IMG/VR virus record: IMGVR_UViG_3300007538_000137
Span: 1 to 27,425 of that record
Source: a virus
Reading direction: 5' to 3' (one strand)
Length of the DNA: 27,425 nucleotides
The translations under genes and the position numbers were made by a program. Every line of letters begins with the position of its first letter. The stretch's first letter is position 1. Below are positions 4,891-24,099 of this stretch, one piece after another. The notes under the pieces are model-generated. The model saw only the letters and a list, made by a program, of their open reading frames with translations, was not told where the DNA came from and made no database searches.

Positions 4891-5211
4891 TTACTTAGAA
4901 AGAAAATGCTTGCGAATGAACAAGTCAAGATAGGCTTTCGCCGCCAAGTTGTTCTTCGCTGGTAGCATTTCTTTCTTCGTATCTTCGTCGATGCGCTCGA
5001 TCAACTTTTCAGCTAAGAGCTGGTTTTTGAAACGGAGCGGTTTGCCACGGAACCAGCTATAGATAGTCATCCGAGAAACACCCATTGCAACCGCAACATA
5101 TTTAGCTGGTAGGTTAGCGTTCACGCAAGCGTGTGCCAACTGTGTGCCTATTCTGTTAGGGTTTGCCTTATGTAGCTCAAGTAAAAAAGCTTCGCTGTAA
5201 GACCGTGACAT
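4891..5211 (-). CDS. HTH DNA-binding protein, candidate regulator
   Basis: This 106 aa basic protein has a helix-turn-helix at about residues 33-58. In the stretch LPAKYVAVAMGVSRMTIYSWFRG, MGVS makes the turn and MTIYSWFRG the recognition helix, in Cro/XRE style. A lysine-rich tail follows. It lies ten bases after the upstream 281 aa gene (TAA, then AAGGA, then ATG) and just before a terminator. It is the only clear DNA-binding regulator in the early region, so it is a candidate binder of the palindromes at the early promoters. It could instead act at an origin. Its target cannot be read from the sequence. Confidence 0.8.
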   Translation of the reverse strand: MSRSYSEAFLLELHKANPNRIGTQLAHACVNANLPAKYVAVAMGVSRMTIYSWFRGKPLRFKNQLLAEKLIERIDEDTKKEMLPAKNNLAAKAYLDLFIRKHFLSK

Positions 5212-12091: not shown

Positions 12092-12580
12092 TCAGCCTCC
12101 GAGCGAATCGCGGAATGACTTGGCTACTACTAGCTCTCTTTCAAGATACCATTTAGCCTTCTCTAAGTCTACGATTGCACTTGCTACGCGGTCTTTCGGG
12201 CGCATTAACTGCCCCTTCTTACCTGCACGACTGACATACTTCACCACGTTACCGAGATGGTAGTTCAGCCCTTTAGCTTCGATATAGTCAATAGTCTCAA
12301 TGCCACCGTCTTTGTAGTGCGGCGGCTCATTGACCAAATCAACATCTTTTGGCTTGTTCCACGATTCAACCAACTTAACAAGGTCGGTCTTTCTATCGCT
12401 AATTAGCTTTCCACTTGAGGGTGGGCTACTATTTTTAGCTTCTTTACGCACAAGATATAGCGTCGCATAAGCCTGTTTTATCGTGCAATTTAGTTTAGCA
12501 ACGATCTGTTTTGGTGTTACGTTAGGATTTGCTTTATGCATCTCACGAATCCGTGACATCAATGATTTACTCTTCTTCAT
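12092..12580 (-). CDS. HTH-DUF3310 protein
   Basis: This 162 aa protein has a C-terminal DUF3310 domain: VNEPPHYKDGGIETIDYIEAKG, then LGNVVKYVSRAGKK and the final helix with DLEKAKWYLERE. DUF3310 proteins are common in phages and are often labelled nucleotide kinases on thin evidence. No P-loop is visible here. The first 50 residues are basic, with a likely helix-turn-helix (NVTPKQIVAKLNCTIKQAYATLYLVRK), so this is a fusion of a DNA-binding part and DUF3310. ATG 12580 has GGAG seven bases upstream, whereas a start 23 codons earlier has none. It overlaps the 66 aa gene by 14 bases. Confidence 0.85.
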   Translation of the reverse strand: MKKSKSLMSRIREMHKANPNVTPKQIVAKLNCTIKQAYATLYLVRKEAKNSSPPSSGKLISDRKTDLVKLVESWNKPKDVDLVNEPPHYKDGGIETIDYIEAKGLNYHLGNVVKYVSRAGKKGQLMRPKDRVASAIVDLEKAKWYLERELVVAKSFRDSLGG

Positions 12581-15539: not shown

Positions 15540-16826
15540 CTAGTCATTGTTGATGTAAACACTCTGGCCGGTAGGTGGCTCAAAGCTACGATTACGGGTC
15601 ACCATCCACAAGGTTGGGCTAGAGATGTTCCACTTCAGATCACTCTCAAGATACCCGTCGGTGAACACAAGGACACACTCTGCCTCAATACGTTCTTTGT
15701 TTATGTATTCACTCACACATGAAGCCATAGTTCCCCCGCCGCCAAGTGGTTTGAGGATAGCTTTGATGTTTGAGTAATGACCCTGTTCAATGATTTGTTC
15801 ACCATGGACTTTGGTATCCCACCACAAGATGCGTACACGTTCTGGCGTGACCGTCTCGCAGATAGATGCCAGTTCCGTGGCAAACTCGGTTATCTCTTCA
15901 ACACCGATAGAACCTGACGTATCGATAGCCACAACAATCTCGCCTATCGTTTCGTCCTCGACGCTTGGTAGATAAATGTCATTAGCCATCTGCCGCTTGT
16001 TCATCCGCCGCCATGTGTACTCATCCTTACCACGTGTGGCTGACATAACGAACTCACGCAAGACCTGACGCCAATCAATCTTTGGTTTTAGTAGATCAGC
16101 AATAGTCTTGGGCATATTGCCGCCCAATCGACCTGCAAGTAACCCACCTTCACGCAGATGCTTCTCGATGTCTTTACCGATCTCCTCTAGTTCACCATCC
16201 GATAGGTTGCCGTCAAAGTCATGCTCATCTTGCTTAGAGATGTCATACTTCTTGCCATTGACTTCGACATAATCTCCGTTGCCATCGCTATCTTGCTTTC
16301 CACCCGAGGGTGTACCGCTATTCGATGGATTACCTTTGTCGCTCTTTTTACCACCATCGCCACCAGACTTAGCGTTCTGTTTGAGGTATCTGAACACTTC
16401 ACGCATCGACCAGTTGTGAAACATCGGGTCATACACACCGCCTTCAGGTAAGGTAACAATCTGCTCATGCTTGTTAGAACTTAGCGTTCCAGTGATATTC
16501 ATGATGATGTCATTCACGACAAAGTCTGCCGCAAGGTTCGCCATCTTGGGGTTCTCCTTGAACATAGTCTTGCCATACATCACCTGTTTCAGCGCAACGT
16601 GCAGGTTTTCATGCAGTATCAGCCCACGCAAATCGCTATCACCTAGATTGGTAATGAACTCGCGTCCATACCGTTTGTTGATACCGTCTGTGTATGCCGT
16701 AGGAATACCATCAACCACCTCTGACTTACCCATCAACATAACGCCTGAGTAGAGCGCAGTCTCTGGGTGCTTCATCAGCGCAATGTGGCTACGCTTTACT
16801 CTTGTCTCTTGAGTATCTTTATCCAT
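15540..16826 (-). CDS. VWA protein with HExxH metallopeptidase-like domain
   Basis: This 428 aa protein has two parts typical of the DUF2201/VWA group. The N-terminal part has HENLH (H72, E73, H76), an HExxH zinc-peptidase motif in GLILHENLHVALKQ, then NLAADFVVNDIIMN, whose D101 or N105/D106 might give a third ligand. A low-complexity Gly/Ser/Lys linker covers about 153-185. The C-terminal VWA domain has a full MIDAS: DTSGS (302-306), T366 in GGGGTMASC and D390 in VFTDGYLESD. It would bind a partner through a metal ion, most likely under control of the MoxR ATPase just upstream (gap 11 bases). Start: GGAG seven bases before the ATG. Whether the HExxH is catalytic is unknown. Confidence 0.9.
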   Translation of the reverse strand: MDKDTQETRVKRSHIALMKHPETALYSGVMLMGKSEVVDGIPTAYTDGINKRYGREFITNLGDSDLRGLILHENLHVALKQVMYGKTMFKENPKMANLAADFVVNDIIMNITGTLSSNKHEQIVTLPEGGVYDPMFHNWSMREVFRYLKQNAKSGGDGGKKSDKGNPSNSGTPSGGKQDSDGNGDYVEVNGKKYDISKQDEHDFDGNLSDGELEEIGKDIEKHLREGGLLAGRLGGNMPKTIADLLKPKIDWRQVLREFVMSATRGKDEYTWRRMNKRQMANDIYLPSVEDETIGEIVVAIDTSGSIGVEEITEFATELASICETVTPERVRILWWDTKVHGEQIIEQGHYSNIKAILKPLGGGGTMASCVSEYINKERIEAECVLVFTDGYLESDLKWNISSPTLWMVTRNRSFEPPTGQSVYINND

Positions 16827-16837
16827 GTCACATCTCC

Positions 16838-17953
16838 TTAGAACAAATCATGGTTGTTTTCTGCCCACTTACCAATCTCTTCGTTGTTACGCGCTAAACG
16901 AATACCCTTCGGGCTACGCATCATCATGGTAAAGAACACACTCTGTACTTCTTCCGATGGAATACGTTTAACGAACTGCATGAACTTGGACAACTGATCC
17001 TGCGTCTCTAGAACATCTACTGCCTGAAACATAATCATCAACTGCGCGCTGATGTCCTTCGGCACATCGATTGTGTCTGGGTGTTTCACGATGTCGCTAA
17101 CATCAGATAGAGTCTTCTCCAGCGACATGAACGCCGCCATGTCAGCCGCAAACGCCGCACCGACCGTACCTGCCAAACCCACCTTCACCGCATTTTCAGT
17201 CAGCTTGTCACGGTTCTTGACAATCACATCACACTTCGCAAGGGAGCGTGGCGACACGAACGACAACGCACCGTTGGTTGGTCTAAAGATGTATGGATTA
17301 TCTTTTTGCTCATCGCCTTGCGTGTAGCTAGCCAGACACCTTGGGAACATCGCAACTGCCGCACGCACAATGCGTGAGATACCATTGTTGCCTGCCCACG
17401 GTAACCATTCTTTAGGAGTTGGTTTCGACATTGGCACGATACACACACGGTTACCTGCGTGAGCAAGCATAGAGTCACCGACACCATCTGATGCATTGTT
17501 AGATGATGCAAACACGACCGACTTGCCTAACGGCTTGTCACCCACCATGCGCTCTAACATCAGCCGAGTGAACACGACCTGCAATAACTTGGGCGACTTC
17601 ATAAACTCGTCGAGCAAGATTACCTTTGGTTTGTCACTATTGAGATTAAACAGCGATGACACATAGTATTCCAATTGCTTTGACGCATGATTGGGGATTG
17701 TCATACCGATGTCCTGCATATCCTTCACAGGGCAGTCAACGTATATGTAATCGTACTTGTCACCGTCTATGTCATAGCCATCTTTGGGTGAGCGCCACTT
17801 GTCACCGTTATCTTCAGCTATCATGCTCAACAATGATGTCTTGCCACAGCCCGGCTCTGACTGCACAACCACAGTTAGTTCTTCACCTACCAGTGGAATG
17901 AAAGAGCGCAACTCATCAATTGACATTGCTTCGAGGGTGTTTACTTTACTCAT
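16838..17953 (-). CDS. MoxR-type AAA+ ATPase
   Basis: This 371 aa AAA+ ATPase has Walker A SEPGCGKTS (32-40), a DCPVKDMQDIGMTIP segment, Walker B VILLDEFMKS (111-120) and sensor 1 FASSNNASDG (149-157). That segment with its D and GMT-P residues is typical of MoxR/AAA_5 proteins. A helical C-terminal domain follows. MoxR ATPases act with VWA proteins as chaperones or remodellers of metal-enzyme or effector complexes, and here the VWA gene follows directly. GGAG lies nine bases before the ATG. It is in the operon from the promoter at 18989. It is not a clamp loader and lacks helicase motifs. Confidence 0.9.
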   Translation of the reverse strand: MSKVNTLEAMSIDELRSFIPLVGEELTVVVQSEPGCGKTSLLSMIAEDNGDKWRSPKDGYDIDGDKYDYIYVDCPVKDMQDIGMTIPNHASKQLEYYVSSLFNLNSDKPKVILLDEFMKSPKLLQVVFTRLMLERMVGDKPLGKSVVFASSNNASDGVGDSMLAHAGNRVCIVPMSKPTPKEWLPWAGNNGISRIVRAAVAMFPRCLASYTQGDEQKDNPYIFRPTNGALSFVSPRSLAKCDVIVKNRDKLTENAVKVGLAGTVGAAFAADMAAFMSLEKTLSDVSDIVKHPDTIDVPKDISAQLMIMFQAVDVLETQDQLSKFMQFVKRIPSEEVQSVFFTMMMRSPKGIRLARNNEEIGKWAENNHDLF

Positions 17954-17985: not shown

Positions 17986-18897
17986 TTACACGCATTTGAA
18001 CGCGCCGAACTTGCCAAGGATTTCGTCGATGTCGTCCTTGACTGCACTGCGCACTGCTTCACTGCCACGGATTGCTTTAGCGTCCACACCATTTAGTGCT
18101 TTCTCTAATGATGCCCGAGCATCCTCAAGTTCGCTCGCACCTGTTAGGTTGAACGATTTGAAAGTCTCGCACATCTCCTTGGCTCTCTCGATTGTCGAAT
18201 CGTAAATCTTACGTTTCTTGATCTTGATCTCACCATCTACCTCTGCCTCATCCACGCTACAACAATGACTGATGGACTTCATCACCTCGATGAACCTTGT
18301 TTGCTGTTCCACCATGACGTGGTTCACTATTTCTTCAGCCTGCTTGTTGTATGTGTTATACAAGTCTTCAGCGATGTCATTGGCTATCTGGCTGCGGAAG
18401 TCGTTCTTGGGTACCTCTGACGTAAACAAACGCAAGCCGAACTTAGATGCCAGTTCTTCGCGCGGCGGGTAGTCATCACGGTTAAACATATCGCCCTGCT
18501 TGAACGCCATGTCACTCACGATGCTATCGTATTCGCCGAGAAACTCACCGAGTAGTTTGCTGAACTCTGCCTCATGTGTATGAAACTCTTCCTTGAACTT
18601 GGGCATATCTACTGTGGGTAGCAAGTCTTGGCTGTTATTCCAGCGATATGTGCGACGCTTTACCCAGTTGTAGATGGTCTGCCGATAGTTCACGATAGCT
18701 TTGTGCTTGGGATGATCTGCTAGCAGATTCTTAACGTACCTACCTGCAGAACGATCAGCTCGTTTTGCTGTAGTAACCTCATTGCTGATGGTGCGGTCTT
18801 GCTTGGTAGCTGACCACACGTTGATGTCTACCGAAACAAGCAGGGCTGATGACGCTAACGAAATCAGATGCTTGGGCTGTTGTAATGCCATATCCAT
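17986..18897 (-). CDS. DUF3150-like coiled-coil protein
   Basis: This 303 aa, mostly helical protein is the first gene after the 19.0 kb promoter. The N-terminal segment LLVSVDINVWSATKQDR resembles the start of DUF3150-type proteins (l-DisxWsxxK), which also tend to sit beside MoxR and VWA genes. The call is from memory. Later parts include GEFLGEYDSIVSDMAF, KFGLRLFTSEVPKNDFR, long helices with AEEIVNHVMVEQQTRFIEVMK, and KKRKIYDSTIERAKEMCETF. It has no catalytic motif and is probably a structural or adaptor partner of the ATPase/VWA pair. ATG 18897 has GGAG seven bases upstream. A start 16 codons earlier reaches into the 5' leader and the inverted repeat, so it is less likely. Confidence 0.8.
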   Translation of the reverse strand: MDMALQQPKHLISLASSALLVSVDINVWSATKQDRTISNEVTTAKRADRSAGRYVKNLLADHPKHKAIVNYRQTIYNWVKRRTYRWNNSQDLLPTVDMPKFKEEFHTHEAEFSKLLGEFLGEYDSIVSDMAFKQGDMFNRDDYPPREELASKFGLRLFTSEVPKNDFRSQIANDIAEDLYNTYNKQAEEIVNHVMVEQQTRFIEVMKSISHCCSVDEAEVDGEIKIKKRKIYDSTIERAKEMCETFKSFNLTGASELEDARASLEKALNGVDAKAIRGSEAVRSAVKDDIDEILGKFGAFKCV

Positions 18898-18924
18898 GAT
18901 GATTCTCCATTTGGTTAAAACAAT

Positions 18925-18953
18925 TTCCACTATCACGTGGAACACTAACTAAG
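18925..18953. repeat. 29 bp repeat element, copy 1
   Basis: The inverted repeat TTCCAC-N6-GTGGAA (18925-18942) is followed by CACTAACTAAG. It lies about 40-57 bases downstream of the predicted transcription start of the 19.0 kb promoter, in the 5' leader, where the RNA could form a 6 bp hairpin. Copy 2 at 21530 has the same spacing to its promoter. Confidence 0.8.
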
Positions 18954-18988
18954 GGATAAGTTAAAGAACTTCATCGCCTTACCATTTC

Positions 18989-19017
18989 ATTATAGTATAA
19001 CTTGACATATGAGTCAA
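18989..19017 (-). promoter_or_regulatory. Sigma70 promoter with operator, 19.0 kb
   Basis: On the minus strand a -35 TTGACT (19012-19017) and a -10 TATAAT (18989-18994) are separated by exactly 17 bases. The palindrome TTGAC-ATATGA-GTCAA (19002-19017) covers the -35 box, a classic repressor position. The 30 bases over the promoter are identical to those of the promoter at 21594-21622. It drives the DUF3150-like/MoxR/VWA operon. Confidence 0.88.
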
Positions 19018-19035
19018 GAGTTTACCTAAAATACT

Positions 19036-19443
19036 TTAACCCCAGTCCGTTACTATCTGGCGCGAGATATCGATAACGGGGTCGCCATGTGTAGACGCCT
19101 TGCCCGCGTTAGCCATGTAGTGGTTGTCGTCTAGTTCTTCACCGATCCGCGCTTTCTCGTACCATATGCCTGAGTTGTTATCCTCGTCGTTGCACCAATC
19201 GTTGGCAATCTCAATGATGCGCTCGTGTGCCCGTACGTCTTGATATGAGTCGTACCACTTAACACTATCAGCCCTGAAGTTGATCGCGTAGTTCTTCTCA
19301 TCTATCTCTAGCTCATCTATGACCGTGGATGTCAGCTCGTTTTCGCGTATCTCGGCAAGAAATACATAGAACGACTGCCTATCCAACCTATCGTCATCCG
19401 ATTGAAAGCGCACCGTGTACGCCAAGTCTGATCTGTAACCCAT
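19036..19443 (-). CDS. 135 aa MGYRS-type phage protein
   Basis: This 135 aa acidic protein begins MGYRSDLAYTVRF, a start shared by a group of phage proteins of unknown function. It then has FYVFLAEIRENELTSTVIDELEIDEKNYAINF, KWYDSYQDV and HERIIEIANDWC. The pattern of two alternating strands and helices suggests a small alpha/beta fold. It is the last gene of the transcript from the 21.6 kb promoter. The next promoter lies just after its stop, and no terminator separates them. GGAG lies seven bases before the ATG. Confidence 0.8.
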   Translation of the reverse strand: MGYRSDLAYTVRFQSDDDRLDRQSFYVFLAEIRENELTSTVIDELEIDEKNYAINFRADSVKWYDSYQDVRAHERIIEIANDWCNDEDNNSGIWYEKARIGEELDDNHYMANAGKASTHGDPVIDISRQIVTDWG

Positions 19444-19444
19444 G

Positions 19445-19873
19445 TTAATTCTCCTTTGCGTGATTTATGAGTTTCGCTAGCAATACCATCAAGTCTTCGT
19501 CTGTCTGATACCCGAATGGTTCGTCACTATCTTCCCACACGTTTGGCATCATCACCTCGTAGGGCGCCTCGGCAGAGCAGTGCATGGTCGAACCACACAC
19601 AACCGATACCGTAAATACAGCGCCACTGGTACATGGAATACTATATTTGGCTTTGTATGATTTACCATTCTTCCTAGCCATCTCTGCCATGATGCCGTTC
19701 GGGTTGCGCAACGCTGACTCATACATGGAGTGGTAGCCCCACTCCACGATGTACTTGTTGAACGGTAGCTTAGGTTTCTCGTTGCCATGCTTGTCTGGTA
19801 GAAATACCTCCTCCATGCGATCAAACACAGCGTGCCTGTCCTCTAGCAGTTGATCTAGAGTTCTTCCAGTCAT
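19445..19873 (-). CDS. 142 aa hypothetical protein
   Basis: I do not recognise this protein. It has a helical N-terminus (TLDQLLEDRHAVFDRMEEVFLPD), a basic middle (MAEMARKNGKSYKAKYSIPC) and a beta-like stretch SGAVFTVSVVCGSTMHCS with Cys. A C-terminal helix LMVLLAKLINHAKEN follows. Start ATG 19873 overlaps the TGA of the NinX-like gene (ATGA), with GAGGAG five bases upstream, so translation is coupled. It belongs to a string of small accessory genes. Confidence 0.75.
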   Translation of the reverse strand: MTGRTLDQLLEDRHAVFDRMEEVFLPDKHGNEKPKLPFNKYIVEWGYHSMYESALRNPNGIMAEMARKNGKSYKAKYSIPCTSGAVFTVSVVCGSTMHCSAEAPYEVMMPNVWEDSDEPFGYQTDEDLMVLLAKLINHAKEN

Positions 19874-20262
19874 GACAACTCCTCTGGTAGTTCAACTTCA
19901 TCGCCCAACTTGGACGCAACGTAGCACCGCATAGCGGCGATTAGTGGTGTGGGGGCTGTCTCACATTTATACGGCTCATCACCGTTGTCAGTAGTGCAGG
20001 ACGTTTCGCAGTACCAACACGGCTCCCGCAGAATGACTCCATTCTCATCATGCACGGCTTCCGAAAACCAAACAGCTAGCTTCTCACGCTCAATGATCGG
20101 TCCACCTTGCGCCCAGTCGGTTGACGGACAAAACGTAACTGACCCTGCGGGCTGTGTTCCTATGCGTATATACGCACCAAAGTCTGTGATTATGTCTTTG
20201 TGCCCTAAAGCCACCGCCACCGCCCAGTCGAGCGCGGCGCCTGTTAATTCACTCGTTTTCAT
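19870..20262 (-). CDS. ninX: NinX-like DUF2591 protein
   Basis: This 130 aa protein matches the DUF2591/NinX pattern: MKTSELTGAALDWAVAVALG at the start and FCPSTDWAQGGPIIEREKLAVWF in the middle, with a conserved C-terminal part APTPLIAAMRCYVASKLGDEV. NinX proteins occur in the nin region of lambda-like phages and many others, with no known activity. An insert with Cys (CWYCETSC, then YKC) could bind a metal and is not typical of the family. AGGAG lies seven bases before the ATG, which overlaps the TGA of the 64 aa gene. A frame 70 codons longer covers that gene and is not real. Confidence 0.85.
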   Translation of the reverse strand: MKTSELTGAALDWAVAVALGHKDIITDFGAYIRIGTQPAGSVTFCPSTDWAQGGPIIEREKLAVWFSEAVHDENGVILREPCWYCETSCTTDNGDEPYKCETAPTPLIAAMRCYVASKLGDEVELPEELS

Positions 20263-20453
20263 TTGCTTTCTCCTTTGAAATAAGTCTTTGCCCTGTCCCA
20301 CAAACACAGCGCATCCATGACGTTCGTGTAGTGAATCGAGTCCTCCATGTCCACGCTGTCGTGACACTGTACAAACTGTTTTACATATGCCTCTGGTGCG
20401 TAGCCCATGGAGTCTGCGTATGCCTTTACAAAGGCGGCTTGTTCCTCGGTCAT
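20259..20453 (-). CDS. 64 aa hypothetical protein
   Basis: This small acidic protein begins MTEEQAAFVKAYADSMGYAPE and continues with FVQCHDSVDMEDSIHYTNVMDALCLWDRAKTYF, mostly helical. It has no known domain that I recognise. A strong AGGAG lies seven bases before the ATG. ATGA overlaps join it to the 56 aa gene before it and the NinX-like gene after it. Confidence 0.75.
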   Translation of the reverse strand: MTEEQAAFVKAYADSMGYAPEAYVKQFVQCHDSVDMEDSIHYTNVMDALCLWDRAKTYFKGESK

Positions 20454-20620
20454 GTCGGCTCTCCTTCCACATCTTCTACGCCTTCTTCATCACTCTCTAG
20501 TGCAATCAGGTTGTTGTCTGCCTGAAGTAGTGACCGCACTTCATCGTGCAGTTCGTTCAGCGCATCCTCTGCGGTCTCGCCTCGTACCCACACGGTACAT
20601 TCAAATTTATATGTTTTCAT
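20450..20620 (-). CDS. 56 aa acidic small protein
   Basis: This short frame encodes MKTYKFECTVWVRGETAEDALNELHDEV, then an acidic tail (LESDEEGVEDVEGEP). The strand-helix pattern KTYKFECTVWVRGETAEDALNEL is common in short phage proteins. Its ATG overlaps the TGA of the zinc-ribbon gene (20617-20620), and its TGA overlaps the ATG of the 64 aa gene. The AGGAG of the next gene lies in its 3' end. The gapless chain is good evidence for translation. Function unknown. Confidence 0.75.
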   Translation of the reverse strand: MKTYKFECTVWVRGETAEDALNELHDEVRSLLQADNNLIALESDEEGVEDVEGEPT

Positions 20621-20832
20621 TTAACTAACCCTCCCTTGTTGTTGATGCCAACTAAGTCGTCCATGTCGGTAAACAACATATAGTTGCTCTTGTGCATGGG
20701 CGCGATTGTCCATGACTTTCTCTCGTCACGCGCAGACGCCTCGCCACATTTGAGACACATCTTGTAGCCCAACGCCCAACGCTCGTAGGGGAAGTCGTCC
20801 CCACAGACGCGACACTCTATCCAATCTGTCAT
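20617..20832 (-). CDS. 71 aa zinc-ribbon protein
   Basis: Four cysteines form a clear zinc ribbon: C7-x2-C10 and C26-x2-C29, in IECRVCGDDFPYERWALGYKMCLKCGE. The rest (SWTIAPMHKSNYMLFTDMDDLVGINNKGG) matches a conserved tail seen in many short phage proteins of this type, whose role is unknown. It is ATGA-coupled on both sides. Binding to nucleic acid or a protein partner is a guess. Confidence 0.82.
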   Translation of the reverse strand: MTDWIECRVCGDDFPYERWALGYKMCLKCGEASARDERKSWTIAPMHKSNYMLFTDMDDLVGINNKGGLVK

Positions 20833-21044
20833 ACCGTCTCTCCTTGTTTTGATAATAAATACTCAGCAAGATGAGCGCGGGCTCTGGCAACTGCATCTGC
20901 AACGGACATGGCATGTACGGGGACAGTGCCGTATGGCATGGGCAATGACACTAAAAAGCGACGGTAGGGGGTGTGCGACCCAGCGCACCCAACACGCTCA
21001 ACCCTGTATTCCGTACCGTCCTCGTGGGTGTATGTACTTGTCAT
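20829..21044 (-). CDS. 71 aa hypothetical protein
   Basis: This small protein has an N-terminal beta part (TYTHEDGTEYRVERVGCAG) and a C-terminal helix (AMSVADAVARARAHLAEYLLS). It resembles short phage proteins of a beta-helix fold with no known role. The ATG follows the 79 aa gene by nine bases, with GGAG before it. Its TGA overlaps the zinc-ribbon start. Confidence 0.75.
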   Translation of the reverse strand: MTSTYTHEDGTEYRVERVGCAGSHTPYRRFLVSLPMPYGTVPVHAMSVADAVARARAHLAEYLLSKQGETV

Positions 21045-21053
21045 GTTTATCTC

Positions 21054-21293
21054 CTAAATGGTGTTGAGTTCTGTAGCCTGAATGTCAGCGTCGAGCAGTG
21101 CGTACCCTGCGGCTGTCTCACTGGTGCAGAGGCTAACGTGAATAATGTCTGACTTGATGGAACGCGCCAAGCTGTTGATTGCGGCAGGCGTGATGTAGTC
21201 TCCACGGTGGTACAGAACCTCCTTTGTGGTGGGGTTGATGATGTCAAACGTTACGACGAATAAGAATCCATCGAGGGGTGAAGAACTATGCAT
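21054..21293 (-). CDS. 79 aa hypothetical protein
   Basis: I do not recognise this protein. It begins MHSSSPLDGFLFVVTFDIINP, then EVLYHRGDYITPAAINSLARSI and IIHVSLCTSETAAGYALL, an alpha/beta pattern. Its ribosome site AAGGAGATCATC before the ATG is nearly the same as those before the genes starting at 24369 and 18897, which suggests these small early genes share a leader type. A competing frame on the same strand is a shadow. It is the second gene after the 21.6 kb promoter. Confidence 0.75.
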   Translation of the reverse strand: MHSSSPLDGFLFVVTFDIINPTTKEVLYHRGDYITPAAINSLARSIKSDIIHVSLCTSETAAGYALLDADIQATELNTI

Positions 21294-21312
21294 GATGATC
21301 TCCTTGATGATG

Positions 21313-21483
21313 TTAAGCTACGAGGCGTAAGCCTGATTGTGTGTCGACCAACCCCTTGCAGTCAGACAGGTCTAACTTGGTGAGGTTGTTCACTAGTTCA
21401 GGCAGGGTGATGAGACCATTGCAGTACATGGCTATGGCTTCTGATGCAGATTCGGTCAGTTGGTTGTATTCTGATTGTGTCAT
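21313..21483 (-). CDS. 56 aa first gene after 21.6 kb promoter
   Basis: This short frame encodes MTQSEYNQLTESASEAIAMY and continues to TLPELVNNLTKLDLSDC, a mostly helical, acidic protein I do not recognise. AGGAG lies six bases before the ATG, the gene is headed by a strong promoter at 21594-21622, and a good ribosome site for the next gene follows the stop, so it is very likely real. Confidence 0.72.
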   Translation of the reverse strand: MTQSEYNQLTESASEAIAMYCNGLITLPELVNNLTKLDLSDCKGLVDTQSGLRLVA

Positions 21484-21529
21484 GGTGATCTCCTGTAATT
21501 AAAAAACGATGAGCCTTGAAAAACATTAG

Positions 21530-21558
21530 TTCCACTGTCACGTGGAATACTAATTAAC
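21530..21558. repeat. 29 bp repeat element, copy 2
   Basis: TTCCAC-N6-GTGGAA (21530-21547) is followed by TACTAATTAAC. As in copy 1, it lies about 40-57 bases after the predicted start of transcription from a sigma70 promoter, and can form a 5' leader hairpin. Three further copies (22077, 22905, 24016) are not in a leader. Confidence 0.8.
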
Positions 21559-21593
21559 GATGTAGAGTAGTTTGTTCTCTGCCCTACACCTCT

Positions 21594-21622
21594 ATTATAG
21601 TATAACTTGACATATGAGTCAA
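21594..21622 (-). promoter_or_regulatory. Sigma70 promoter with operator, 21.6 kb
   Basis: On the minus strand a -35 TTGACT (21617-21622) and a -10 TATAAT (21594-21599) have a 17 base spacer. The palindrome TTGAC-ATATGA-GTCAA (21607-21622) overlaps the -35. The promoter is the twin of the 19.0 kb one and heads the nine small genes from 21483 to 19036. Confidence 0.88.
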
Positions 21623-21654
21623 GGCTTTGGGTAAGAAAGTTAGATAGGGTGGTT

Positions 21655-22017
21655 TTGTTCTAATGTTCTAGCTTGTTCTATTTTTTTGACTTTACATATA
21701 GAACAAGATTTTAGTGGTGCTGATTTTGTAAGTTGTTGATTTTCTTATATATTATTTTATAATAAGTATAGTATAAGTGTACTTGTTCTAATGTTCTAGT
21801 AATTTTTAGGGGGATACGGTTCTATTTTGTGTTTTGGGGTGAGGCTTTGCATTTGCTGGGAAGGACGCTTGATCCACACTTTTTCAAATTTTTGCCCGTC
21901 CCCTGCAAAAAACGTAGAACATTAGAACAAAACGCTTGGAACCCGCATAAAACCTAGCTTTTTTTGTTCTAACTTTACATTCAAAATCGTGTTTTGTTCT
22001 ACTTTTTTGTAGAACAA
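21655..22017. repeat. GTTCTA/TAGAAC iteron array, candidate origin
   Basis: Gene-free stretch (21623-22076) with twelve copies of GTTCTA or its complement in 361 bases. Plus copies start at 21657, 21665, 21675, 21785, 21793, 21819, 21966 and 21996. Minus copies start at 21699, 21915, 21923 and 22010. Eight carry the longer TTGTTCTA form. The 16-mer TTGTTCTAATGTTCTA occurs directly at 21655 and 21783 and inverted at 21915. An AT-rich block (about 21730-21780) lies between. This is the layout of an iteron-type origin with an unwinding element. A dense operator array is the alternative. No gene is apparent here. Confidence 0.7.
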
Positions 22018-22076
22018 GGCGGCAAACAACCCCCAAAAACTTCATCTACCGTTCTCAGAAATGAAGTACAGAGTAA

Positions 22077-22105
22077 TTCCACGTCCACGTGGAACACTAA
22101 TTAAG
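22077..22105. repeat. 29 bp repeat element, copy 3
   Basis: TTCCAC-N6-GTGGAA (22077-22094) is followed by CACTAATTAAG. It flanks the iteron region on its right side. A TGTACT lies at 22066-22071, 5 bases after it on the minus strand, but no convincing -10 box follows, unlike copies 4 and 5. Confidence 0.8.
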
Positions 22106-22131
22106 CACCTAGCATGGCATCGCGCGCTGGC

Positions 22132-22164
22132 TCTCGCGCGGGGAAACAGAACTGGTATCAAATA
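22132..22164. repeat. 33 bp intergenic repeat, copy A (with AACTGGTATCA)
   Basis: A 33 base stretch identical to 22960-22992. It runs from a CGCGCG-rich segment through GGGGAAACAGAACTGG to ATCAAATA. It lies between the terminator of the 199 aa gene and repeat copy 3. In copy A, the two CGCGCG blocks could form a hairpin (CGCGCG-N8-CGCGCG, 22120-22141). Confidence 0.8.
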
Positions 22165-22172
22165 GCAGGCAC

Positions 22173-22198
22173 AAAAAAAGCCAGCCCGAAGGCTGGCT
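22173..22198 (-). terminator. Terminator of the 199 aa gene
   Basis: The minus strand has a perfect 8 bp stem AGCCAGCC / GGCTGGCT with a TTCG loop, followed by seven T (plus-strand A tract 22173-22179). It starts 16 bases after the stop of the 199 aa gene, as a canonical Rho-independent terminator. Confidence 0.92.
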
Positions 22199-22214
22199 GT
22201 GAGTTATTAGGGTT

Positions 22215-22814
22215 TTACCTTAGGACTGACCAGAAAGCATCCACCGCCATTTTGTATTTGACTACATTAGCCACCGCGTCACCTTTTGCCTGTTTGATCT
22301 TGCAGGACTTCTCTTGTGCCTCAAACATTTTGGTAAGTGACTCAACAAAAGTTAACTCAGTTCTGGTTGACTTACCATTCTGGTGGTTTATGAGTTTTTT
22401 AGCCTGTGAGACCAAGGCGTTGAACCTGTTTGAACAGTAGGTTTGAGTGTCTTTCCTGATCTTACCGACTATACCATGAAGGTTCGGGTTCTCTGTTTTG
22501 AGTTTACCGAACTCTTGGTTTGAGAATGAAAAGGCAAAATCGACACTTACAGTGACTCTCTCAGCGCCCTTTTTAGCCTTCACATCATCCTCAGGTAGGT
22601 AATTACCATCAACGACTACGAAGGTTTTTGCAGGCTTGTTCTCAGAGTATCTTAGGCGGTAGCCCTCGAATAACTCTGACTTAGCCTCTGGGCTTGTGGT
22701 CTCTGGGAACCCTGCGATGTGGTCAATAGCCCATTGTGCCATTGACTCGACTACATCACCAGCCTGTGCTTGTTTATAACCAAGGTCACGAAGCGAACTA
22801 ATTGTATCTTGCAT
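22215..22814 (-). CDS. 199 aa paralogue A of unknown family
   Basis: This protein is a clear paralogue of the 212 aa protein at 23283-23921. Both have AGFPETxSPEAKxELxxGYR, then GAERVTVSVDFAFSF and NQEFGKLKxENPxLH, then TYCSNR. The family is not known to me. It is soluble, alpha/beta, with no membrane segment. ATG 22814 has GGAG nine bases upstream, while a TTG five codons earlier is in the ribosome site and less likely. The gene has its own promoter (22875) and terminator (22173), so it can be expressed alone and probably highly, as for moron-like genes. Confidence 0.85.
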   Translation of the reverse strand: MQDTISSLRDLGYKQAQAGDVVESMAQWAIDHIAGFPETTSPEAKSELFEGYRLRYSENKPAKTFVVVDGNYLPEDDVKAKKGAERVTVSVDFAFSFSNQEFGKLKTENPNLHGIVGKIRKDTQTYCSNRFNALVSQAKKLINHQNGKSTRTELTFVESLTKMFEAQEKSCKIKQAKGDAVANVVKYKMAVDAFWSVLR

Positions 22815-22874
22815 GATACTACTCTCCAAAAAGTTAATGAAACATCACCTAGAACCCTTCTAAGTGATGATTCA

Positions 22875-22903
22875 ACTATATCAACCCCGAACCCTTAAGT
22901 AAA
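22875..22903 (-). promoter_or_regulatory. Sigma70 promoter of the 199 aa gene
   Basis: On the minus strand a -35 TTTACT (22898-22903) and a -10 TATAGT (22875-22880) have 17 bases between. Repeat copy 4 ends two bases upstream of the -35, the position of an activator or UP-type site. Confidence 0.78.
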
Positions 22904-22904
22904 G

Positions 22905-22933
22905 TTTCACACGGGAGTGGAACACTAATTAAG
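22905..22933. repeat. 29 bp repeat element, copy 4
   Basis: TTTCAC-N6-GTGGAA (22905-22922), one mismatch in the left arm, then CACTAATTAAG. It directly abuts the -35 of the promoter of the 199 aa gene. Copy 5 has the same place next to the promoter of the 212 aa gene. Confidence 0.8.
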
Positions 22934-22959
22934 CCTCGCGCGGTCTGACTCGCACGCCC

Positions 22960-22992
22960 TCTCGCGCGGGGAAACAGAACTGGTATCAAATA
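22960..22992. repeat. 33 bp intergenic repeat, copy B (with AACTGGTATCA)
   Basis: Identical over 33 bases to 22132-22164. It lies between the terminator of the 61 aa gene and repeat copy 4. Upstream of it the region is CGCGCG-rich, as in copy A. Confidence 0.8.
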
Positions 22993-23000
22993 CTGGGCGC

Positions 23001-23023
23001 AAAAAAACCCGCCGAAGCGGGTT
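23001..23023 (-). terminator. Terminator of the 61 aa gene
   Basis: The minus strand has a 7 bp stem AACCCGC / GCGGGTT with a TTCG loop and a T run that follows (plus A tract 23001-23007). It starts 7 bases after the stop of the 61 aa gene. Canonical Rho-independent terminator. Confidence 0.92.
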
Positions 23024-23030
23024 GGGTGAA

Positions 23031-23216
23031 TCAGTAAAACTTCTTTTCTTGAATGACATCATTGGACATCCAAAATTCGGCAAGTTTGGTGATGCCCTCG
23101 TTTTCAAAGACAGAGACAATAGGGGTACTTCCACCGAATCGGACGGTATAAAATCGGTCTCGACCAAACTGTCCAACTGCATGAGCCATCAAAGTTTTCA
23201 TTATTTCAATTTGCAT
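23031..23216 (-). CDS. 61 aa hypothetical protein
   Basis: This small protein begins MQIEIMKTLMAHAVGQFGRDRF and continues YTVRFGGSTPIVSVFENEGITKLAEFW, a small alpha/beta pattern I do not recognise. The start at 23216 has GGAG six bases upstream. A longer frame from a GTG at 23246 begins inside the preceding terminator and is unlikely. It has a terminator after it, but its own promoter is not visible: only 20 bases separate it from the terminator of the 212 aa gene, so it depends on read-through. Confidence 0.72.
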   Translation of the reverse strand: MQIEIMKTLMAHAVGQFGRDRFYTVRFGGSTPIVSVFENEGITKLAEFWMSNDVIQEKKFY

Positions 23217-23235
23217 TTTAATCTCCATTAGGTAG

Positions 23236-23261
23236 AAAAAACCCACCCTTTCGGGTGGGTT
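23236..23261 (-). terminator. Terminator of the 212 aa gene
   Basis: The minus strand has a 9 bp stem AACCCACCC / GGGTGGGTT with a GAAA loop and a T run (plus A tract 23236-23241). It lies between the 212 aa and 61 aa genes, with no room for a promoter before the latter. Confidence 0.9.
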
Positions 23262-23282
23262 CCTAAGTTAGACAGTTAAGAG

Positions 23283-23921
23283 TTAGGCATTCCAGACAGT
23301 ACGGAATGCTACAACCGCTTGGTTGAATCGCTTGACGTCAAGATCACTATTGTTGCCCCTTGATACCGCATTACGCAGACGCGTTGGTGCGATATTCTTG
23401 AGCCAATCGTCTACGAATTCATCGAACGTCTTATTGGCAACCCGTTCGCGTTCTTTGCCGTCGTTGGTTAGTTTCTTAGCCGTGCGCTTAAGATCACCTA
23501 GACGGTTAGAACAGTAGGTACTGCATTTGTCGCGTACTGTCTTGATTAGGCTATGCAGTTGCGGGTTTTCATCTTTCAACTTGCCGAATTCTTGATTAGT
23601 AAAAGAATACGCGAATTCGACGCCAACTGTAACGCGTTCCGTCTTATCCGATGGTGCTTCCGATAATTGCTCGACGTTGGCGTAAACCCCATTTAATACC
23701 GCGTATGTTTGGGCTGGATTCAATTCGTTGAATTTCATCCGATAGCCGTTGTAGAGCTCGTCTTTAGCCTCTGGACTAATCGTTTCAGGGAATCCCGCGA
23801 CTGTATCAAGACAGTATCGGGCGACTGATTCAATTGTCTGCGTTGCCGATGCTTGACGGTATGCACCATCTTTAAGCGATTTGAAAGAAACCGCGTTTGC
23901 GGCAGTACTTGCTTTTGTCAT
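23283..23921 (-). CDS. 212 aa paralogue B of unknown family
   Basis: This is the paralogue of the 199 aa protein at 22215-22814. The shared parts are the N-terminal VAGFPETISPEAKDELYNGYR, ERVTVGVEFAYSFTNQEFG, KLKDENPQLHSLIK and STYCSNRLGDLKRTAKKL. The C-terminal end differs and has its own basic segment (FDEFVDDWLKNIAPTRLRNAV). Family and role are unknown. The first ATG (23927) has a GGAG only two bases before it, while the next ATG (23921) has eight bases of spacing and is preferred. It has its own promoter at 23986 and its own terminator. Confidence 0.85.
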   Translation of the reverse strand: MTKASTAANAVSFKSLKDGAYRQASATQTIESVARYCLDTVAGFPETISPEAKDELYNGYRMKFNELNPAQTYAVLNGVYANVEQLSEAPSDKTERVTVGVEFAYSFTNQEFGKLKDENPQLHSLIKTVRDKCSTYCSNRLGDLKRTAKKLTNDGKERERVANKTFDEFVDDWLKNIAPTRLRNAVSRGNNSDLDVKRFNQAVVAFRTVWNA

Positions 23922-23985
23922 GTTCATATCTCCATAAAATGAACGATTGAAATATCAATAGGGCGATTTCCCTACTGACGAGTTA

Positions 23986-24014
23986 ATACTATCCTAAGTG
24001 ACAGCTTATGTACA
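23986..24014 (-). promoter_or_regulatory. Promoter of the 212 aa gene
   Basis: On the minus strand a -35 TGTACA (24009-24014) and a -10 TAGTAT (23986-23991) have a 17 base spacer. Weaker than the promoters at 19.0 and 21.6 kb. Its layout matches the promoter of the paralogue: repeat element, two bases, -35. Confidence 0.65.
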
Positions 24015-24015
24015 G

Positions 24016-24044
24016 TTTCACGAGGGGATGGGACACTATTTAAC
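24016..24044. repeat. 29 bp repeat element, copy 5 (degenerate)
   Basis: TTTCAC-N6-ATGGGA (24016-24033), followed by CACTATTTAAC. The right arm has diverged, but the tail CACTA and the place two bases upstream of a -35 match copy 4. Confidence 0.7.
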
Positions 24045-24086: not shown

Positions 24087-24099
24087 AGAACTGGTATCA
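24087..24099. repeat. AACTGGTATCA motif, copy beside 67 aa gene
   Basis: AGAACTGGTATCA (24087-24099) lies between the terminator of the 67 aa gene and repeat copy 5. A short inverted repeat TAGTAG-N5-CTACTA (24106-24122) lies between the motif and the terminator. Confidence 0.65.

Follow-up and report, generated by a model that had tools for sequence, protein, structure and literature searches.

A repeated palindromic element with lineage-specific stems in an uncultivated phage group and a candidate phage-encoded reader

We analyzed positions 1 to 27,425 of the IMG/VR record IMGVR_UViG_3300007538_000137, from an uncultivated phage; this whole stretch of 27,425 nt is referred to as the window. 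Its features include an ATPase gene (16838-17953), ORF 17986-18898, and two paralogous genes referred to as the p family, together with a repeated element of about 29 bp (Table 1). Read on the minus strand, the element consists of an outer arm, CTTAATTAGTG or similar, followed by the 6-N6-6 inverted repeat TTCCAC-N6-GTGGAA. On the plus strand, the pattern TTYCAC-N6-GTGGAA-N-ACTAAYTAA was matched exactly at 18925, 21530, 22077, and 22905, all in intergenic DNA, while the reversed-pattern control gave no match. Although the sequence at 24016 (TTTCACGAGGGGATGGGACACTATTTAAC) is a clearly degenerate copy, it shares the context of the copy at 22905 and is homologous by position. All five copies are oriented with the sense strand of the leftward early genes, bearing out a preliminary description that had listed five sites in a single orientation. 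The core with up to 2 mismatches gave 28 matches, compared with 4.5 +/- 2.7 in shuffled sequences (near-palindromes being counted on both strands). Requiring the arm and tolerating at most one stem mismatch left five sites in the window, every one with the window's own stem; four other stem types had no such site, and looser matches without the arm are present inside genes.

Table 1. Features of the window discussed in the text. Promoter boxes are our own reading of the minus-strand letters.
Feature	Position	Strand	Remarks
HTH-like protein, binder proposed in the preliminary description, not supported	4891..5211	-	about 95% identical across stem switch
Element copy 1, leader context	18925..18953	-	arm CTTAGTTAGTG + TTCCAC-GTGATA-GTGGAA, about +41 to +58
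Promoter of copy 1	18989..19018	-	-35 TTGACT 19017-19012, 17 bp, -10 TATAAT 18994-18989
Element copy 2, in the leader of the gene run from 21483 to 19036	21530..21558	-	same position relative to its promoter as copy 1
Promoter of copy 2	21594..21623	-	layout identical to copy 1 promoter (TTGACT, 17 bp, TATAAT)
TTGTTCTA / TAGAACAA repeat array	21652..22010	.	in a gene-poor stretch adjoining copy 3
Element copy 3, no promoter directly after	22077..22105	-	beside TTGTTCTA repeat array
p-family gene, downstream paralog, candidate reader	22215..22814	-	start ATG with SD TTGGAGAG
Promoter after copy 4	22875..22903	-	-35 TTTACT 22903-22898, 17 bp, TATAGT 22880-22875
Element copy 4	22905..22933	-	one base upstream of -35 of the 22215-22814 gene
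p-family gene, upstream paralog, candidate reader	23283..23921	-	AF2 mean pLDDT 89, no fold match
Promoter after copy 5	23986..24014	-	-35 TGTACA 24014-24009, 17 bp, TAGTAT 23991-23986
Element copy 5, degenerate	24016..24044	-	one base upstream of -35 of the 23283-23921 gene

The copies occupy two kinds of promoter context. Copies 1 and 2 had been placed at about +40 to +57 of a sigma70 promoter, which holds with the measured positions; copy 1 lies upstream of the Shine-Dalgarno (SD) sequence of ORF 17986-18898 and occupies the same place in about 45 distinct relatives, in which its promoter is also conserved. For copies 4 and 5, the described context upstream of a -35 box stands, although the gap is one base rather than two. 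The promoter of copy 4 is conserved in relatives as CTTTACTTAAG. The leader copies end well before the SD, and the -35 copies lie more than 80 nt from the start codon. Copy 3, which the preliminary description had set against an iteron array, indeed lies beside the repeats at 21652-22010, and its neighbourhood was matched in four relatives (G003, L009, L054, and L097).

Several further motifs accompany these copies. A perfect palindrome, CTTGACTCATATGTCAAG, covers the -35 of both leader-type promoters (19001-19018 and 21606-21623) and occurs nowhere else in the window. It has the same 6-N6-6 geometry as the element and is largely conserved in relatives whatever their stem type; a conserved regulator, for example the HTH protein at 4891, may bind there. 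A second conserved motif, TTGANACCAGTTNTT (plus strand GAACTGGTATCA), is found at 22149-22160, 22977-22988, and 24088-24099, about 45-55 bp upstream (in the sense direction) of the copies at 22077, 22905, and 24016 and after the terminator of the preceding gene, and recurs near elements in relatives. The repeat array, a possible replication origin, has TACCGTTCTCAGAA nearby and adjoins an element copy in relatives too. Three genes contain degenerate element-like sites, DUF2201 at 16298-16315, the ATPase at 17881-17898, and HTH-DUF3310 at 12409-12426, in each case where relatives carry lineage-specific copies.

Relatives were gathered through the ATPase (80 viral loci) and through ORF 17986 (57 viral loci); every one is a metagenomic contig, and none is cultured. 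Among phage isolates, no similar DNA was found for the window at the megablast or blastn level, the p23283 protein had no tblastn match among 50,697 phage records, and the best ATPase matches (Erwinia, Vibrio, Acinetobacter, and other phages) reached only 22-26% identity. The match in the genome collection was one 7.6-kb contig in an actinobacterial metagenome-assembled genome, possibly misbinned.

Both promoter contexts are kept in about 80 related viral contigs. About 45 distinct leaders upstream of the ORF 17986 homologue share one layout: a sigma70-type promoter comes first, then a hairpin where the transcript begins, and the palindrome stands between a TTAGNG-like linker and the SD. The context at the p genes was found in 57 instances, nearly all with identical spacing and mostly following the consensus TAGYG-TCCCAY-NCCCCN-RTGRAA-C-TTTACTTAAG; a conserved arm-like TTAAG on the far side of the palindrome, after the -35, overlaps the promoter. 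The copies cluster in one non-structural early region of 10-12 kb. The two checks proposed in the preliminary description, conservation in relatives and density inside coding regions, were run, and neither spoke against a single factor acting at both contexts. In four relatives (L063, L088, L090, and L140), a small upstream ORF separates the promoter from the ORF 17986 homologue, and in the first three of these the element lies inside it.

Each genome carries its own stem in essentially all copies, even in some inside genes. The stem is TTCCAC in the window, G003, G025, and G032; TCCCAC in G006 and G031; TTCCGTC in G001 and G021; ATCTGTC in G002; CCCAGC in G011, G022, and G023; and TCTCACG (given also as TCTCAC) in L030/L033. 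A scan of 12 long genomes for sites with an arm and no more than one stem mismatch recovered the genome's own stem almost exclusively; the exceptions were TTCCAC-type sites, two in G006 and one in G021. Relatives with 95-99% identity in core proteins nevertheless differ in stem at the compared copies. The clearest natural experiment is the comparison of G001/G021 with G022, in which orthologous sites change from CCGTC to CCCAG between flanks that are up to 93-95% identical. The same switch is seen within genes, namely in the ATPase gene, the DUF2201 linker, and a zinc-finger gene, and the DUF2201 copy is lost in G021. The case of the ATPase gene is weaker than the intergenic and DUF2201 cases, as it could partly reflect codon constraints (DPLPDG). 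A gene-conversion-like spread of the repeat is disfavoured, since the in-gene copies switch with different flanks. Because both contexts are conserved and all copies of a genome change stem together, the suggestion of the preliminary description that one sequence-specific factor acts at two promoter contexts is well supported.

A trans-acting reader that switches specificity should be alike in G001 and G021 but different in G022. Among the genes of the early region, the two p paralogs fit best. They lie directly downstream of the -35-type copies, and the promoter of each p gene carries the element, an arrangement that an autoregulator would be expected to show. Their identity is 94-95% between G001 and G021, which share a stem, but 28-29% across the switch from G021 to G022, over which the ATPase (98%), polA (99%), terL (95%), and, within 92-99%, HTH-4891 and most neighbours are nearly unchanged and ORF 17986 retains 84%. 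No other genes shared within the early region diverge along with the copies, a few small ORFs with no detected counterpart in G022 being left unjudged. Other stem changes behave likewise, with p identities of 49-53% between G021 and G002 and about 56% between L030 and L187. The relationship also had predictive value in contigs found by p sequence alone: L181, 95% identical to the p of G021, has CCGTC, and L183, 100% identical to the p of G022, has CCCAG (L183 and L184 look like near relatives and are not independent cases). Over all relatives, the partial correlation between stem distance and protein identity was -0.46 and -0.52 for the p paralogs and -0.55 for polA; since p is no stronger than polA, it is the close-pair comparisons, and not this test, that single out p. 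The link between p and the site is correlational, with few independent specificity switches behind it (about four or five with p genes on both sides).

AF2 predicted p23283 with good confidence (pLDDT 89) as a mainly helical protein whose one long helix spans 120-153. Compared with PDB and BFVD, the model gave no match with E below 0.001 (the best Z, 5.1, is not informative), and neither a DNA-binding fold nor a known protein family could be recognised for p. Around the long helix, residues 105-155 show 100% identity between G001 and G021, which share a stem, and 49% between G021 and G002; this region may carry the specificity, which we offer as a lead only.

Other candidate readers were considered. 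The HTH protein at 4891-5211, named as the binder in the preliminary description, keeps about 95% identity and an unchanged HTH region across the switch, in two relatives with entirely different stems. It is an unlikely reader rather than an impossible one, because cluster A repressors with identical HTH can have different stoperators (PMC6550527). The protein encoded at 12092-12580, in which an N-terminal HTH-like region is joined to DUF3310 and whose linker DNA contains an element-like site, was also rejected, its HTH part being nearly unchanged between genomes with different stems.

With moderate confidence, we propose that the copies are operators of a phage-encoded, sequence-specific regulator, most likely the paralogous p family, whose sequence switches together with that of the site, and that they serve in autoregulation and as a roadblock in the leaders. 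At the p-gene promoters, where the site covers the region up to the -35 and TTAAG overlaps the promoter, a bound regulator, presumably a dimer, would control transcription, most simply by negative autoregulation. Because the conserved TTAAG arm follows the -35, repression appears at least as likely as activation at these copies. A protein bound at about +41 to +58 of the two main early promoters would obstruct transcription or attenuate it, and the leader site is possibly active as an RNA hairpin as well.

The evidence on whether the element acts as DNA or RNA differs between the contexts. The preliminary description had offered an RNA hairpin in the leaders as an alternative, and it fares well for the leader copies, with their perfect inner stems and second hairpin at the transcript start, but not for the -35 copies. 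In its full form, the alternative states that the leader copies are RNA elements, with one stem-loop (SL1) at about +1 and the palindrome as a second (SL2), bound by a protein or by RNA polymerase to control translation, mRNA stability, or antitermination, the -35 copies being a separate use of the sequence. All seven SL2 stem pairs covary, with double changes; sliding the partner columns by 1-3 reduced paired cells from 85% to at most 43%, and the four innermost pairs are 100% complementary in leaders. A DNA palindrome read by a dimer, however, predicts the covariation equally well. SL1 folds better than its shuffles in 93% of leaders (mean energy -9.7, compared with -6.0 for shuffled sequences), and its arms change together while staying complementary. 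GNRA-like loops occur in 4 of 13 distinct leader G..C loops and in 1 of 20 other such sites. The -35 copies, on the other hand, show C.A mismatches in 39 cells and G.U pairs in 16, the opposite of what RNA pairing would lead one to expect, and lie outside the transcript of their promoter, indicating that they act as DNA. Orientation is mostly with transcription, but the arm is antisense at one copy each in G002 and G001, and an Rfam covariance-model search of the whole window gave no match above the gathering score. We therefore consider a purely RNA-based function of the leader copies unlikely, and take DNA binding as the common function of the copies, while regarding a further role as RNA in the leaders as a serious prospect.

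Less probable still is a host DNA-binding protein as the reader, with the stem lineages infecting different hosts and p being host-interaction proteins that change likewise. Tail fibre proteins also diverge between G021 and G022 (27%), which makes host change a confounder. The fibre does not track the stem, however, being 74% identical between G021 and G002, with different stems, and 70% between G021 and G001, with the same stem, whereas p tracks it in both comparisons. We consider it very improbable that the copies function in replication, partition, or packaging and not in the control of transcription: copy 3 does lie beside a possible origin, in an arrangement conserved in relatives, and the copies do cluster in one early region, but four of the five hold fixed positions relative to promoters over large sequence divergence.

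Returning to the phage-encoded regulator, a bolder and doubtful extension is that the p proteins could represent a hitherto unrecognised class of sequence-specific nucleic-acid-binding regulator with no known fold, reading one element in two forms, as DNA operator and as leader hairpin. Quick switching of specificity might then leave near-identical phages with incompatible regulatory codes, possibly excluding each other in co-infection.

The observed pattern is a clear case in which the sites of an entire putative regulon switch recognition sequence jointly, outside the mycobacteriophages and in an uncultivated phage group, and a protein family without a known fold is named as the likely reader. 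Matched, near-identical genome pairs on either side of the switch allow a direct test of the way in which a phage regulator acquires a new specificity along with its 5 to 13 scattered sites. A further question is whether such switching divides closely related phages into separate regulatory groups.

The closest analogues are the cluster A stoperators, the cluster K ESAS, and the cluster O repeats; in its workings the element resembles the first two, but geometry and context set it apart from all three. In cluster A, which consists of temperate phages, each genome has 20-30 stoperators, asymmetric sites of 13 bp to which an HTH repressor binds, stopping transcript elongation (PMC6550527, PMC9283540). 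In both systems, many sites per genome lie mostly in one orientation, some at promoters and others not, and site consensus and regulator (here a candidate) diverge together between lineages. The present element differs in being an 18-bp 6-N6-6 inverted repeat with one arm, in about 5-13 copies, with a candidate reader of no known fold. A search limited to tyrosine integrases (PF00589) gave no match in the 12 long relatives, whose contigs may be incomplete, and this makes a role in lysogeny somewhat less likely. ESAS have 17-bp halves, are tied to a SAS located 3-7 bp from the start codon, and are thought to bind unidentified DNA-binding proteins, RNA pairing being unsupported according to the authors (PMC3203893). 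Like the present element, they are inverted repeats that precede early, non-structural genes in one orientation and have a consensus that differs per subcluster, as it does here per lineage. Here, in contrast, the halves are 6 bp with an arm, the contexts are fixed relative to promoters, the leader copies pair, and there is no SAS-type link to the start codon. The 17-bp palindromic repeats of cluster O are likewise multi-copy palindromes with no assigned function, partly inside genes; they number more than 30 invariant copies whose orientation is not meaningful, and the accessible part of their description contains no account of concerted sequence switching between relatives (PMC4351075). Finally, the leader copies resemble HK022 put RNA in having two stem-loops at or near the 5' end of the early transcripts of a long operon. 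The put RNA acts as RNA only, causing antitermination through the beta' zinc-binding domain without a protein factor (PMC9378689), whereas the present element also lies upstream of -35 boxes and has lineage-specific stems.
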